36,860 bases of DNA, taken from contig DZBS01000017.1 in NCBI GenBank assembly GCA_022729995.1, positions 1 to 36,860 on the forward strand. Reading direction: 5' to 3'. Source of the stretch: Draconibacterium orientale (GTDB lineage Bacteria; Bacteroidota; Bacteroidia; Bacteroidales; JAADGE01). How positions within the stretch are numbered: position 1 is the stretch's first letter; each line of letters starts with the position of its first letter. Positions 28,487 through 33,832 of the stretch are shown one piece after another. Position numbers and translations under genes: made by a program. Under the pieces are notes generated by a model. It saw only the letters and a list, made by a program, of their open reading frames with translations, made no database searches and had not been told where the DNA came from.

Positions 28487-29428
28487 ATGGAAAACCCTAT
28501 TTTTGAAAATGCTAAACCTTTTAGCAAATTATTTTTTTTGATATTTATTATATTTAGCTCATTACTAATAGTTTTAATTTTTTCATTATTAATTTCAATT
28601 CCTGTTTTTGGCATCGAATTCGGAAATTTGAATTCTTTTCTTGATATTAGAAATCCCGATAATTTGGGTTTTATGAAGTTTATGCAAATTATGCAATCAA
28701 TTTCAATTTTTATAATTCCTCCAATAATTGCTGCATACATTTTTTCTAAAAATTTCAGAGAATTTTTGTTTATCAATAAAAAACTAAACTTTGTTAATAT
28801 TTTATCTGTTGTTTTAATAATAATTTTATCAATTCCAATTATTAATCTTTTTGCCGAAATAAACAGTTCATTGAAATTGCCTCAATCGTTATTATGGTTG
28901 GAAAACTATATGAAATCGGCAGAAGAATCGGCTAAAGAAACAACCGAACTATTCCTTAATGTAAAAACAGTTCCCGGACTTTTATTAAATTTATTTATGG
29001 TTGCTTTAATTCCTGCTATAGGAGAGGAATTGCTTTTTAGGGGAATATTGTTAAAATTGTTTGCAGATTGGACAAAGAATTTTCATGTTGCAATTATTAT
29101 TTCGGCATTTATTTTCAGTTTTATACATTTTCAATTTTACGGTTTTTTGCCCAGGTTATTAATGGGAATTTTATTCGGATATTTTGTTTTTTGGTCTAAA
29201 AACCTGTGGCTTTCAATGATTGCACATTTTGTGAACAATGCAATAGGAGTAATTGTTTTTTTTATTTATTTTGGGATGCCCGAAATGGATAAAATTGAAA
29301 AAGCCGGTGTTAATTACGGCGAATACACATTGTTGCCAATCTCATTTTTAATTGCAGGTTTGTTGATATATATTTTTTATAAGAATAATAAAAAAATTGA
29401 AATTAATTCGGTTGAGCAAAAAAGTTAA
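28487..29428 (+). CDS. CPBP-family intramembrane metalloprotease
   Basis: A 313-aa membrane protein of the CPBP (CAAX protease/Abi) family. The catalytic motifs are all present: E180-E181 and R185 in GEELLFRG, H214 in FIHFQ, and H247 with N250/N251 in IAHFVNN. About eight hydrophobic segments surround them. Family members cut within or near the membrane; in bacteria they process peptides or take part in bacteriocin immunity, and the substrate here is unknown. The last 26 bases overlap the 3' end of the kinase gene on the opposite strand. It follows the MscS channel by 28 bases, so the pair may be an envelope-stress operon. Confidence 0.88.
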   Translation: MENPIFENAKPFSKLFFLIFIIFSSLLIVLIFSLLISIPVFGIEFGNLNSFLDIRNPDNLGFMKFMQIMQSISIFIIPPIIAAYIFSKNFREFLFINKKLNFVNILSVVLIIILSIPIINLFAEINSSLKLPQSLLWLENYMKSAEESAKETTELFLNVKTVPGLLLNLFMVALIPAIGEELLFRGILLKLFADWTKNFHVAIIISAFIFSFIHFQFYGFLPRLLMGILFGYFVFWSKNLWLSMIAHFVNNAIGVIVFFIYFGMPEMDKIEKAGVNYGEYTLLPISFLIAGLLIYIFYKNNKKIEINSVEQKS

Positions 29429-31139
29429 CATTTTTCATTTCCGGATTATAAATATATAAAACACTTTCGTTTGTTTTTGTATTTAACACCGAAATTGCAT
29501 CAATTTCAAGATATTCATATTTCTTGGCATCATAACTTTTTCCTTCCGGAGTTAGCCGAGAAGTTGTATTTCCGATGAACCACCTTCCTCCGGATTTTCC
29601 TTTAGAAATGGTTTTTATTTTGAAATCGCCGTTTAAATCTATTATAACGTTTTGTTTTGCGTTGTTCAAGAAAATTATCATTTTTTTTTCGTCGGAATTA
29701 ATTTTTGTAAGAATACAAGCAAAATTTTCTTCGTCCGAATTGTCGAAATATCCAAAACTAATTGTGTTATATTCAAAATCATTTTTTTGCTCGGCAAACA
29801 ATTTCCACTTTGTTTTGTTATCCTCAAACAATCTGTTTTCCAAGAAATAATCTCTGATTGCAATTTTATATTTTGTTGGAGTTAATTGTCCCGAATATGT
29901 ATTTCCCATTATTTCGTTAATTTGGTCGAAAATGTGATTTACAGCTAAATCGGTTTTTTTTATGTAACCCGAATTATTCCTTAAGCTTGCAACTCTAAAC
30001 CATTCAAGCGAATCCGAAGTTTTACTTTTCACCGACCTCAAAATTCTTACGGTTTCTCCGTAATTAATTTTTTCTATCAATTCTGCATTTGCACTGTCAG
30101 CTGCAAGTAATAATCCTTGTGGAGCAATAACTCGTCTAATATCTTTTTTATTCAGAAAAAAAATTCCGGTACCTATTGCCGTAGTAAAAATTATTGCTGC
30201 AATCATCAAAATCATATTTTGCAAAAAAGTTCTGCTAAAAATTTTATTTTTTATCTCAAGGTCAGATGCTTCGATAATTTTTGTTTGAAGTGAAATATTT
30301 TTTGGTTTAGATATTTTTGTTTGACTGATTTGAATATTGATATTGAATTCTTCGCATGTTTGAAACCTGTCTAAAGGTTTTTCGGCAGTTGCTTTTTCAA
30401 TAATTTCGCACATTTTTAATGAAACTCCTTTGTAAAATTCTTTCGGATTTGGAAACGGTTCGTTTAGAATTTTGTTATAAATTTCATATTCGGTCAAATT
30501 TTTGTCATAAGGAAGTTGGCCGGTAAGAATATAAAACAGAGTTGCTCCAAGCGAGTAAATATCTGAACGCCTGTCGAGAACTCGTCCTTTAATTTGTTGC
30601 GGACTCATAAACATTGTTGTCCCAACTTTTGAGCCGTCTTTTGTATGAACGTTTGTGTTATTATTAATATATTTTGCTATTCCAAAATCTATCAGTTTAA
30701 CATTTCCGTTTGGAGTTATTAGAATATTTGACGGTTTTATATCTCTGTGAATAATGTTTTTTGAATGAATATATGAAATTGCACTTAATATTTGAGTAAA
30801 AATTTTAACAGCTTTTGTTTCGGGCATTGGTCCTGTTACTAAATCTATATAATCATCAAGCGGCTGACCTTTAACAAATTCGCTAATTATGAATAATCCT
30901 TGTTGATTTTCGACATAATCGTAAAGTGCAGTTATATTTGGGTGGTTTAGTTTTGAAAGAGTTATTGCTTCTTGCCTAAATCTCTCTTTGCTTTGAGGAT
31001 TTTTTGCCAAGTTTGGTTTAAGCATTTTTATTGCAGCCTTTCGTTTTAACTGTTTGTGAATACCAAGATAAACGGTAGACATTCCGCCATCGTCAATAAT
31101 TTCGTCAATCAGGTAATTATTAATTATATCTCCAACCAT
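29403..31139 (-). CDS. Membrane Ser/Thr protein kinase with SH3b-like outer domain
   Basis: A 578-aa transmembrane Hanks-type kinase. The kinase domain spans about 8-270, with K38 (AAIKML), E57 in the C-helix, HRDIKPSN (131-138, catalytic D133) and DFG (151-153), so it looks active. The Gly-rich loop is altered: DDGGMSTVY has Asp where the first Gly is usual. A membrane helix follows at about 308-330. Outside lies a bacterial SH3-like domain (about 340-402, ending SGYIKKTDL) and then about 175 residues I do not recognise. SH3b domains often bind peptidoglycan. It is third in an operon: its start is two bases after the phosphatase stop. Confidence 0.93.
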   Translation of the reverse strand: MVGDIINNYLIDEIIDDGGMSTVYLGIHKQLKRKAAIKMLKPNLAKNPQSKERFRQEAITLSKLNHPNITALYDYVENQQGLFIISEFVKGQPLDDYIDLVTGPMPETKAVKIFTQILSAISYIHSKNIIHRDIKPSNILITPNGNVKLIDFGIAKYINNNTNVHTKDGSKVGTTMFMSPQQIKGRVLDRRSDIYSLGATLFYILTGQLPYDKNLTEYEIYNKILNEPFPNPKEFYKGVSLKMCEIIEKATAEKPLDRFQTCEEFNINIQISQTKISKPKNISLQTKIIEASDLEIKNKIFSRTFLQNMILMIAAIIFTTAIGTGIFFLNKKDIRRVIAPQGLLLAADSANAELIEKINYGETVRILRSVKSKTSDSLEWFRVASLRNNSGYIKKTDLAVNHIFDQINEIMGNTYSGQLTPTKYKIAIRDYFLENRLFEDNKTKWKLFAEQKNDFEYNTISFGYFDNSDEENFACILTKINSDEKKMIIFLNNAKQNVIIDLNGDFKIKTISKGKSGGRWFIGNTTSRLTPEGKSYDAKKYEYLEIDAISVLNTKTNESVLYIYNPEMKNVNFFAQPN

Positions 31140-31141
31140 TT

Positions 31142-32386
31142 TTACATCTCCAAACTTAAAGGGATTATCAGATTTTCTCCGGGTAAAATTACAATCTCTT
31201 TTTTATTATTTATATTTATAATCTTACAAAAATTAATTTTAAAGAATTTCTCTATTATAATTTTATTTTCTCCGGGATTTATAATTAAATTATTTTGAGT
31301 ATTTATTTGGAAAATAGAATATCCGGGATTGTTTTTTATTCTCTTTATTTCATTCTCTTTAATATCGTATTTTTCACTGATATATTTTATTGTTTTTGAA
31401 CTATTTTCGAAAATATAATGTTTTTGCACTATTTCATATTTCGTATAAATAATTGCTTTTGCAGGTTTTTGGTTAATAAAAAGTTTTGATAAGTCTGCTT
31501 TTTTATAATCTGTCATAAACCGGTAAAATGTAAACATTGTTAATGTTAATAAAACCAAAGAAATAAAAGCAAACAACTTAAGTCTTAATTTAGATATTTT
31601 AGGTTTTAACGATTTTTTTTGCTCTTCGTTGTTTCCTGTATTGAAAAAATTTATTGTTAGAGCTGTAATATTATCATCTGAATGATGTGTTTTTGCTTTT
31701 CGAATTAATGAATTTGTTTTTTTTTCAACTGATGTTTTTTTTGAAAGAATTTCAATTATTTCTTTATCGCTTACAAATGAAGATAATCCGTCGGTGCATA
31801 ATAAAATGTTATTACCGTCGGTCGGAATTATTGGTTCTTTACATACTTCGGGCGAAAAGTTTGAGAAAACGCCTAAAGCATTAGTTATCTTATTTCTTTC
31901 AGGATGTTTATGAGAATCTTTTTCCGATAATTTTCCTTTCTTAATTAAATTTGCTATGTATGAATGATCTTCCGTTAATCTGAAAATCTTTTTTCCGGTG
32001 GTTAAATAAATTCTGCTGTCGCCGGCATGAGCGTAATAAAATTTATTGTCGCGAAGTAATCCTATTACAATTGTTGTTCCCGGAATCGGATTAATATTTT
32101 TCTCTTTGGATTTTTGAATAATTTCATTATTTGCAAAAATACAAGCATCTTCAAGTAATTTGTAAGGGTTATTTTTCCATTCTGAATTTATAAAATCTTT
32201 AACGGAAATTGTTGCAGTTTCAGATGCAATTTCTCCAAAATCTATTCCGCCCATTCCGTCGCAAACAATAAATAAATTGCCGTTTACAGTTTCGCAAAAT
32301 GTATAAAAATCTTCATTATTTTCCCGTTCGCCAATATCTGATTTAGCGAATATTTCAAATGAACTTATTTTTTTTGTAATTGTCAT
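31142..32386 (-). CDS. PP2C-type phosphatase with membrane helix and LysM-like tail
   Basis: A 414-aa Ser/Thr phosphatase of the PPM/PP2C class. Residues 1-250 hold the catalytic domain: RENNEDF near 21-27, DGMGG at 43-47, HAGDSRIYL at 120-128, TDGLSSF at 198-204 and DDNITAL at 238-244, with metal-binding D43, D199 and D238. A membrane helix follows at about 269-290. Beyond it, residues about 328-378 look like a LysM peptidoglycan-binding module (TIKYISEKYDIKENEIKRI, then NPGENKIII). The protein should reverse phosphorylation by the kinase encoded next to it. It starts five bases after the FHA gene and ends two bases before the kinase gene, so all three are surely co-transcribed. Confidence 0.92.
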   Translation of the reverse strand: MTITKKISSFEIFAKSDIGERENNEDFYTFCETVNGNLFIVCDGMGGIDFGEIASETATISVKDFINSEWKNNPYKLLEDACIFANNEIIQKSKEKNINPIPGTTIVIGLLRDNKFYYAHAGDSRIYLTTGKKIFRLTEDHSYIANLIKKGKLSEKDSHKHPERNKITNALGVFSNFSPEVCKEPIIPTDGNNILLCTDGLSSFVSDKEIIEILSKKTSVEKKTNSLIRKAKTHHSDDNITALTINFFNTGNNEEQKKSLKPKISKLRLKLFAFISLVLLTLTMFTFYRFMTDYKKADLSKLFINQKPAKAIIYTKYEIVQKHYIFENSSKTIKYISEKYDIKENEIKRIKNNPGYSIFQINTQNNLIINPGENKIIIEKFFKINFCKIININNKKEIVILPGENLIIPLSLEM

Positions 32387-32391
32387 CGAAA

Positions 32392-33750
32392 CTATTCTTG
32401 GTTGAAAATTATAAATGCACAGCCCAGCTTGATTTTATCTTTGTTTTTAAGACTTTTAATTTCAATTTTTTCACCGTTTACGAACGTTCCGTTTGTGCTC
32501 GAAAGGTCTTTAATATACACCAAATCGTCTTCAAGTTTAATTTCGGCATGAAAACCCGAAACTGTGGAGTCGGGAATTTCAAAATCGCACTCGGAATTTC
32601 TTCCTAATATGTTTTCTTTTTTCCTGATAATGAATGTTTTTTTTATTCCTTTTGTTTGTAAAATCAATTCACCTGCAGGTTTAATGAATTTGCCGGATTC
32701 GTTACTTTCTATTGTTTCCTTTACAAAAAACCGTAATTGTTTTTTTAGTTTTATAGATTTATTCGACAAAATTAATATTCCAAGTAGTAATAAACTTGTT
32801 ATTATTATTACAATCGGATAATTATATTTTGCAATTATACTTTTTTTATTTGTATTAGGTGTTTCGGTATAGACATTTAAGTAGCTGTTCTTGTATCTTA
32901 TTGTTAAGTAATCGTATGAAATTATTGATTTTAAAACTGTTATTAAATATATTGTATTGTTGTCTGGATTTAAAGTTGCACTAATATCTTCCAAAAAGGT
33001 TTTTACATCTTTTAAAAATGTTATTTCGTTAGTTTTTGTAAACATTCCGCCGGAAACTTTACATAGTTCAATTATTGATTTATCGTTAACAGTATCTCTA
33101 TTCTCATCATTTAAAGCAAAATAAAAAGGAATATTATACATATTAATTTTTTTGGAAACAATAACATCAATTAATGTAAAATCATAGCTTTTCGATAGAA
33201 TTATCAATGAAGCATTGTTCAATTTCTTTTCTGATGTAAAGATTAATTTGTTTACATCGAAAATTAAATCGCTAAAAATATTGCTGTTATTATTTTCGTC
33301 AATATGATTTGTATTTTGAATAAAATCTATAAAATAACTATGGTTTGAAGAAAATTCGGCACTTGAAAATTTCAATATAAATTTATTATTTATTGTTTTT
33401 TTAAAATATGCAATATTGATTTTATCTTTAGAATTTAGCTCTGAAATTAACTTTAACATGCTTTCTTTGTTTTCTTTTTTACTGATTATGTCAAAATCTA
33501 TTAAAAAGAAAATATGTTTATCGTTAAAAGCTATTTTATCTGAATATTTTTTAAAATTAAAATCCAATTCTTCATTATTGCAACTCACAGAAAAGTCTTC
33601 TTTTGACGAAAGTTGTCCTTTTGTTGTTACAAATATTTTCATTTCAGGATATGAATTTATATCTGTTTTTATAATTTCAAAATCGGATTGAGAGAAAACC
33701 GTTTGTGAAAAAAAAATTAATGCTAATGTTTGTAAAATAAGCTTTTTCAA
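32392..33750 (-). CDS. FHA-domain membrane protein with VWA-like outer region
   Basis: A 452-aa protein with an unusual layout. A signal sequence (1-20, ending VFSQS) is followed by about 290 extracytoplasmic residues. These resemble a von Willebrand A fold (HIFFLIDFD at 79-87, ASLIILSKSYD at 180-190, a long KVSGG loop), but the usual DxSxS metal site is not intact. A membrane helix at about 311-329 leads to a cytoplasmic FHA domain (about 372-450). There G383/R384, S398, H401 and N420 (SSTNGTF) form the phosphothreonine pocket. The FHA part should bind a phosphorylated partner, most likely the kinase of the same operon. It is the first gene; a TAACTTTG box sits 21 bases upstream. Confidence 0.87.
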   Translation of the reverse strand: MKKLILQTLALIFFSQTVFSQSDFEIIKTDINSYPEMKIFVTTKGQLSSKEDFSVSCNNEELDFNFKKYSDKIAFNDKHIFFLIDFDIISKKENKESMLKLISELNSKDKINIAYFKKTINNKFILKFSSAEFSSNHSYFIDFIQNTNHIDENNNSNIFSDLIFDVNKLIFTSEKKLNNASLIILSKSYDFTLIDVIVSKKINMYNIPFYFALNDENRDTVNDKSIIELCKVSGGMFTKTNEITFLKDVKTFLEDISATLNPDNNTIYLITVLKSIISYDYLTIRYKNSYLNVYTETPNTNKKSIIAKYNYPIVIIITSLLLLGILILSNKSIKLKKQLRFFVKETIESNESGKFIKPAGELILQTKGIKKTFIIRKKENILGRNSECDFEIPDSTVSGFHAEIKLEDDLVYIKDLSSTNGTFVNGEKIEIKSLKNKDKIKLGCAFIIFNQE

Positions 33751-33771: not shown

Positions 33772-33779
33772 CAAAGTTA
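33772..33779 (-). promoter_or_regulatory. Candidate -7 box of the FHA-phosphatase-kinase operon
   Basis: The minus strand reads TAACTTTG, identical to the -7 box of the divergent tetR gene about 45 bases away. No clear -33 TTTG is seen. The two promoters face away from each other within a 109-base gap. Confidence 0.5.
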
Positions 33780-33800: not shown

Positions 33801-33832
33801 TTTGATTTTTTAAAAAGTATCTTTTAACTTTG
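33801..33832 (+). promoter_or_regulatory. Promoter of the TetR-family gene
   Basis: TTTG at 33801-33804 and TAACTTTG at 33825-33832 are 20 bases apart, a near-perfect Bacteroidota -33/-7 pair. It overlaps a TTG at 33830 that could be mistaken for the start codon, so the ATG at 33860 is preferred. Confidence 0.7.

Follow-up and report, generated by a model that had tools for sequence, protein, structure and literature searches.

Three contiguous minus-strand genes in the 36,860-nucleotide window (the whole stretch of DNA analyzed here) encode an FHA protein, a PP2C phosphatase and a Hanks-type kinase. We propose, with moderate confidence, that the best explanation for them is an operon that encodes a membrane-based phospho-threonine switch, which probably couples the state of the envelope to reversible protein phosphorylation in these uncultured bacteria. 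The trio is a real set of neighboring genes: coordinates and strand are exact, as are the gaps of 5 and 2 nucleotides reported in a first-pass annotation, and the Pfam matches of the kinase (PF00069, 187.9 bits), the PP2C domain (58.3 bits) and the FHA domain (PF00498, 71.2 bits) all exceed their cut-offs. Catalytic motifs of the kinase (AAIK, HRDIKPSN, DFG) and phosphatase (RENNED, DGMGG, AGDSR) are present, as are the phospho-threonine-binding motifs of the FHA domain (GR, SxxHA, STNG). The same annotation described each product as joining a cytoplasmic signaling domain to an outer one across the membrane, and hydropathy and sequence agree, predicting one hydrophobic span per protein, between its two parts. 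The features are as follows.

32392–33750, minus strand: gene 1, VWA-TM-FHA reader, 452 aa, TTG start (sequence, Pfam)
33691–33750, minus strand: signal-peptide-like N-terminus of gene 1, residues 1–20 (sequence; helix 3–19 in the model)
32974–33531, minus strand: predicted VWA fold, extracytoplasmic, residues 74–259, lacking the DxSxS metal motif (structure model, motif check)
32776–32838, minus strand: predicted transmembrane span of gene 1, about residues 305–325 (hydropathy; helix in the model)
32395–32685, minus strand: FHA domain, cytoplasmic, residues 356–452, with GR, SxxH and NG (Pfam, fold, motif check)
33772–33779, minus strand: possible Bacteroidota -7 box TAACTTTG, upstream of gene 1 (no more frequent in the window than expected by chance)
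31142–32386, minus strand: gene 2, PP2C-TM-LysM phosphatase, 414 aa (sequence, Pfam)
31646–32377, minus strand: PP2C domain, residues 4–247, Stp1-like, catalytic motifs intact (profiles, motif check)
31517–31597, minus strand: predicted transmembrane span of gene 2, about residues 264–290 (hydropathy, sequence)
31295–31444, minus strand: first LysM-like repeat, strongly degenerate, about residues 315–364 (alignment with relatives having two LysM repeats)
31154–31288, minus strand: second LysM-like repeat, about residues 367–411 (profile E 0.0047; alignment with relatives)
29403–31139, minus strand: gene 3, kinase-TM-SH3b-C-terminal domain, 578 aa (sequence, Pfam)
30330–31121, minus strand: Hanks Ser/Thr kinase domain, residues 7–270, PknB-like, catalytic motifs intact (profiles, motif check)
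30282–30284, minus strand: codon of Thr286, juxtamembrane threonine of the kinase, candidate FHA docking site (kinase alignment)
30156–30230, minus strand: predicted transmembrane span of gene 3, about residues 304–328 (sequence, alignment)
29940–30149, minus strand: SH3b domain, residues 331–400 (profile, model, fold comparison)
29406–29939, minus strand: conserved C-terminal ectodomain, residues 401–578, helices followed by ~130 residues of beta sheet, FG-GAP/propeller-blade-like (alignment, model)

Promoter scans found no motif excess over shuffled sequences.

Outer domains of the three proteins

The PF00069 match and the motifs named above, together with the activation-segment threonine in GTTMFMSPQQ, identify gene 3 by sequence as a Hanks-type, PknB-like kinase. 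Its identity as a PASTA kinase was ruled out: the PASTA equivalog NF033483 (PrkC/PknB) scores 276.2 bits, under its cut-off of 450 and over the kinase part only, there is no PASTA match, and an SH3b domain stands in its place. The earlier description of the outer region as SH3b-like is supported by fold and family matches. The window copy scores 18.0 bits against PF08239 (SH3_3), under the cut-off of 27; the profile matches 15 of 16 family members (best E 1.3e-8), and in the AlphaFold model the domain (pLDDT 89.7) resembles an endolysin SH3b (Z 11.0). That description was nevertheless incomplete, since a second, larger conserved domain of ~175 residues, not listed there, follows at the C-terminus. 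An FG-GAP profile matches it weakly in three members, and its beta part resembles propeller blades (Z about 8), a likeness that may reflect a common arrangement. For the ectodomain as a whole, comparison with known structures gave a clear match for the SH3b part only, and a PDB sequence search (query A1) returned only weak SH3-type matches (E 0.007–0.08).

Gene 2 scores 219.5 bits against the Stp1/IreP profile NF033484 (cut-off 230) and retains the metal-binding motifs; the pairing of a PknB-like kinase with an Stp1-like phosphatase supports the proposed switch. The LysM-like outer part reported for this protein is unambiguous in relatives, which have two copies of it (52.3, 44.8, 42.5 and 31.9 bits), but is weak in the window copy (PF01476, 17.3 bits, cut-off 20.9), which alignment suggests to be a degenerate tandem LysM. 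Part of genus g5 has a single repeat, and in genome G077 the outer domain and the membrane span are both lost.

No FHA domain was found in the genome other than that of the reader, which favors the switch. Its PF00498 score and its phospho-threonine-binding residues (G, R, S, H, N, G), invariant in nine sequences, mark it as a genuine FHA domain, and its modeled fold agrees (Z about 19). The signal-peptide-like N-terminus and single span predict an N-out/C-in topology, the reverse of the kinase and phosphatase. Comparison of the outer regions with known folds, which the first-pass annotation had suggested, recovered a VWA fold here as it did an SH3b fold in the kinase: the gene 1 model (pLDDT 74.6 overall) aligns with the VWA domain of TFIIH p44 over 165 residues (Z 17.9, rmsd 2.8). 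The VWA-like call thus stands by predicted fold, although gene 1 has no Pfam VWA match and the MIDAS motif DxSxS at the first VWA strand is absent in all reader sequences compared. Because this motif is missing, and because VWA domains are not known as wall binders, the envelope response that had been ascribed to the reader does not follow; its VWA domain may equally well serve as an output or a scaffold.

Distribution and related operons

The kinase with this ectodomain occurs in all 21 genomes of its own family and, in a patchy pattern, across the rest of the order (18 of 393 genomes, seven families); it was not found outside the order. At least four families have the complete trio as adjacent genes in an unchanged order, a recurrence beyond chance, so the absence from related genomes that would have told against the earlier reading was not observed; operon-type gene order and overlaps recur in several families. 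Kinase and VWA-FHA protein co-occur, in favor of the switch: the latter was found in 15 of 18 kinase genomes versus 4 of the remaining 375, and at family level in 6 of 7 with the kinase versus 3 of ~113 without. Mirror-tree correlations (rho 0.67–0.72) lack a background-gene comparator and were not used as evidence.

Other observations count against the switch. The FHA gene lies away from the kinase in family f63 and in some members of genus g5, VWA-FHA was not found in four genomes (G008, G020, G006 and G278), and no conserved cell-wall genes were found beside the trio across the family, in addition to the degenerate or absent LysM and the missing MIDAS motif. The neighbors are unrelated and variable, being, as named from reading of their sequences, an MscS-type channel, CPBP protease, TetR, UbiD-like decarboxylase, sulfotransferase and flippase. 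A tie of the trio to cell-wall genes was ruled out on this ground.

The membrane-spanning VWA-FHA protein is a shared part that also adjoins PP2C in larger kinase/FHA operons, and related operons have reader and phosphatase with swapped outer domains. Such swapping would suit ordinary PknB/PstP-type signaling in which the outer parts are passive anchors at the membrane or wall, sensing nothing, with regulation in the cytoplasm. Fast divergence of LysM (14–28% identity to the window) and VWA (19%), the decay of LysM and the VWA domain without MIDAS fit this explanation as well. We nonetheless regard it as rather unlikely: the kinase ectodomain (~245 residues) has 27 invariant columns and 39–40% identity to the window (versus 62% in the kinase domain), good conservation that goes beyond what an anchor would require, and membrane-anchored copies of it exist without any kinase.

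Thr286 and the proposed switch

Within an otherwise variable juxtamembrane linker, Thr286 is kept in 32 of 33 kinases, and its +3 position, the register commonly read by FHA domains, is mostly hydrophobic (I/F/V/L). This alignment nominates Thr286 as a possible docking point of the FHA protein. The residue is also kept, where read, in the four genomes in which VWA-FHA was not detected.

In the switch that we propose, the kinase would read a periplasmic ligand or state through its SH3b and C-terminal domains and phosphorylate itself and partners, and the membrane-held PP2C protein, anchored toward the wall by LysM, would strip these marks. The VWA-TM-FHA protein would dock on a phospho-threonine, possibly Thr286, and either pass the state to its outer VWA or build an envelope complex there. 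Wall sensing by the trio is plausible; SH3b and LysM bind other ligands too, which counts against a wall reading. A more specific version, which we offer tentatively and consider doubtful, is a dedicated envelope circuit of Bacteroidota-type Gram-negatives in which both enzymes contact the wall and the FHA protein acts from the inside out, docking on phosphorylated Thr286 and changing its outer VWA or, where a sister family has one, its outer trypsin-like protease. Were this true, phosphorylation inside the cell would drive an event outside the membrane. In the sister family f120 the FHA partner forms a fusion with an outer domain of trypsin-like type, as would fit a reader that serves as an output arm. 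The trio is a compact, conserved set with a single genomic FHA reader and one specific predicted docking threonine, so that the wiring from kinase to mark, reader and outer effect is directly testable.

Comparison with known systems

Our literature search found no description of the LysM-PP2C/VWA-FHA/SH3b-kinase trio, and little on Hanks-type signaling in Bacteroidota. Control of a secretion or surface machine, with the VWA as machine contact, would parallel PpkA/PppA/Fha1 of type VI secretion, likewise a kinase, PP2C and FHA regulatory set with a VWA outside the membrane (PMC3224232). VWA domains are protein-contact modules, and the FHA domain weakly matches the TagH family (TIGR03354, 37.5 bits). 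However, the VWA sits on the reader rather than the kinase, no secretion genes adjoin the trio, and the type VI sheath gene VipB was not found in its own genome (93% complete). Such control is improbable, and a type VI regulator was rejected because VipB was not found and the TIGR03354 score is under the cut-off of 120 bits. An origin as a membrane-attached branch of the stress-response and defense TerY-P triads, in which a VWA-type TerY, a PP2C and a kinase are encoded together (PMC4978471), we consider very improbable. The same three folds share one operon, and a soluble VWA-PP2C-kinase-like triad exists elsewhere in the same genome, on C62; that triad, however, lacks both an FHA domain and a membrane span, and a DTSPS motif is retained in its VWA. 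TerY-P triads are linked to DNA-processing genes and lack the FHA-VWA membrane fusion, whereas the trio has no flanking defense or DNA-processing genes. Membership was ruled out by that fusion and by the separate triad on C62.

Firmicutes PASTA kinases with Stp/PrpC share adjacent genes for a PknB-like kinase and Stp1-like PP2C; the trio differs in having no PASTA, a membrane-spanning phosphatase and a third gene, VWA-FHA. A protein of the cyanobacterium Synechocystis also joins a kinase, membrane span and outer SH3b, and the excerpted account of it describes no conserved second ectodomain or PP2C/FHA operon (PMC1262709). In the related larger operons L175, L176 and L178, genes for VWA-TM-FHA, PP2C and kinases are accompanied by an FHA-ABC2 transporter, recalling the Rv1747-type FHA-ABC transporter with PknF as it appears in a citing passage (PMC6213207), but this larger set is not the window trio.

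A close parallel also bears on the earlier suggestion that such a set is uncommon, to which Actinobacteria offer a precedent: there PstP, a phosphatase that also spans the membrane, is encoded at one locus with PknB and FhaA/FhaB (PMC6554272). That locus likewise unites FHA readers with a transmembrane PP2C and with a transmembrane Hanks kinase whose ectodomain is wall-related (PMC6554272, PMC6428115), and its kinase and phosphatase domains belong to the same subfamilies as those of the trio. The kinase ectodomain there is PASTA, in place of SH3b and a second domain; RodA/PbpA genes are absent beside the trio, whose phosphatase carries LysM and whose FHA protein is fused through the membrane to VWA. 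By this analogy, the trio is best read as a membrane phospho-switch like PknB/PstP/FhaB of Actinobacteria, with another set of ectodomains.

Architecture of the predicted membrane phospho-signalling trio

The first-pass annotation had described three closely spaced genes, each joining a cytoplasmic signalling domain to an outer one (VWA, LysM or SH3b), and this anatomy stands in its coordinates, gaps, motifs, SH3b fold and VWA fold, with LysM clear in orthologues. The genes, in order of reading, are separated by 5 nt (FHA/PP2C) and 2 nt (PP2C/kinase):

32392-33750, minus strand: FHA protein (VWA-TM-FHA reader), 452 aa, TTG start, first gene
31142-32386, minus strand: PP2C phosphatase, 414 aa, second gene
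29403-31139, minus strand: Hanks kinase, 578 aa, third gene

The kinase, PP2C and FHA domains all scored well over the Pfam cut-off, the nearest NCBIfam models were PknB (kinase domain) and Stp1 (phosphatase), and a check of the window sequences found the catalytic and phospho-Thr-binding motifs present. At its 3' end the kinase gene shares 26 nt (29403-29428) with the 3' end of a convergent CPBP-type gene. At the other end, two TAACTTTG boxes (33772-33779, minus; 33825-33832, plus) face the divergent FHA and TetR genes; they may be divergent promoters, in which case the TetR gene could be a regulator of the trio.

The kinase ectodomain was modelled by AlphaFold at pLDDT 89.7. Its SH3b domain, seen as an SH3_3 match in 15 of 16 family members (best E 1.3e-8), superimposes on that of the phiSM101 endolysin with Z 11.0 over 67 residues (rmsd 1.7) and also matches SH3b domains of Bacteroides dipeptidyl-peptidase VI. 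SH3b makes up less than one third of the whole outer region. The rest, residues 401-578, is a conserved second domain, in which helices precede a beta-sheet part of ~130 residues and which has weak matches to FG-GAP. Membrane-anchored copies of the ectodomain without a kinase also exist; loci L025, L026 and L028-L031, among other matches of ~300 aa, carry both SH3b and the second domain.

In the window's phosphatase, LysM scored 17.3 bits, below the cut-off of 20.9, and two LysM exceeded that cut-off in four orthologues (L106, L111, L108, L105); the alignment with these indicates that its outer part is a degenerate tandem LysM. One repeat is kept in part of genus g5, and none in genome G077. 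The reader is predicted to have an inverted topology, with a signal-peptide-like start, VWA outside and FHA inside. Its outer part was modelled as a VWA (Z 17.9 against TFIIH p44, ~16 against the VWA domains of inter-alpha-inhibitor and alpha-2-delta), in which a motif check did not find DxSxS. The trio may sense the wall, and its VWA arm could serve for output instead of sensing.

Distribution and a candidate docking site

The kinase ectodomain occurs in all 21 genomes of the window's family, f1, where PP2C adjoins the kinase wherever the contig could be read far enough; 18 of these genomes have the VWA-FHA gene. That gene is contiguous with the PP2C-kinase pair in the window and in genomes G019, G002, G003 and G001. 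In G004, one contig ends with this gene and the beginning of PP2C (L179), and the kinase contig starts inside PP2C, so that this is probably one locus cut by assembly. In part of g5 (L040, L041, L045, L048), 3-4 kb of opposite-strand genes separate VWA-FHA from PP2C-kinase; this cassette holds sulfotransferase, acyltransferase-like and flippase genes.

Among 393 genomes of the order, the search gave 24 matches, ectodomain-only proteins included, with the full kinase in 18 genomes (families f1, f17, f56, f58, f63, f85 and f120). The first-pass annotation stands here too: the trio is conserved outside f1, contiguous and in unchanged order, in f17, in f85 and in four genomes of f56. In a phylum sample of 395 genomes, the ectodomain search returned only the window's own and two partial matches. 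After two weak matches were dropped, 15 of 18 genomes with the kinase had VWA-FHA, versus 4 of the other 375. Genomes are not independent; collapsed by family, the counts were 6/7 versus 3/~113.

FHA domains bind phospho-threonine, often with selection at position +3. The juxtamembrane linker that follows the kinase domain is variable (mean 36% identity to the window), yet its Thr286 is conserved in 32 of 33 kinases, mostly within T-[KRQ]-[ILV]-[IFVL]-[DE], although its alignment is doubtful for the two f120 kinases. From this sequence pattern we predict Thr286 as a candidate FHA docking site. The sole exception, G077, has lost the outer part of the phosphatase, and no VWA-FHA was found in it; G008, G020 and G278 gave no VWA-FHA match, yet keep Thr286.

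Related operons and exchanged outer domains

VWA-TM-FHA is not limited to the trio: it also lies next to PP2C in f11, f67, f71, a second G004 locus and G523, from another order, usually preceded by a soluble FHA protein. Where contigs were long enough to show downstream genes (f11, f67, G004), the PP2C is likewise membrane-spanning with different outer regions, followed by a soluble kinase and a multi-span FHA protein (RDD family in L176). The f11 and G004 operons have additional kinases; f11 has an FHA-ABC2 transporter upstream, and G004 an FHA membrane protein resembling it. These larger operons (L175 4703-18715, L176 5131-18684, L178, L174), with parts comprising FHA-ABC2 transporter, soluble FHA, VWA-TM-FHA, PP2C-TM-X, soluble kinase, FHA-RDD and membrane kinases, are a fuller phospho-signalling island that has its VWA-FHA and PP2C parts in common with the trio. 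In f120, the kinase is directly followed by an FHA-FHA-TM-trypsin-like protein (L116 9345-10640; L117 5675-6970), by its domains a predicted phospho-reader fused to an outer protease. Together, these loci indicate that readers joining FHA to an outer domain recur, with the outer domains swapped.

Comparison with known systems

The window's own genome has one FHA domain (that of the trio), two PP2C and three kinase-like genes, and no type VI sheath was found in it; at 93% completeness, such absences are provisional. Its second PP2C lies on contig C62 (L186 1867-5254) within a row of soluble VWA (DTSPS), PP2C and kinase-like genes that resembles TerY-P triads (PMC4978471). Membership of a PASTA kinase system was rejected, PASTA having been tested and not found, as was membership of the type VI pathway; the trio would only work like these systems. 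The first-pass annotation had called the arrangement unusual. An actinobacterial locus also has a transmembrane phosphatase (PMC6554272), which makes the arrangement less singular than claimed. The trio most likely works as a membrane phospho-switch resembling PknB/PstP/FHA, with a new set of ectodomains.
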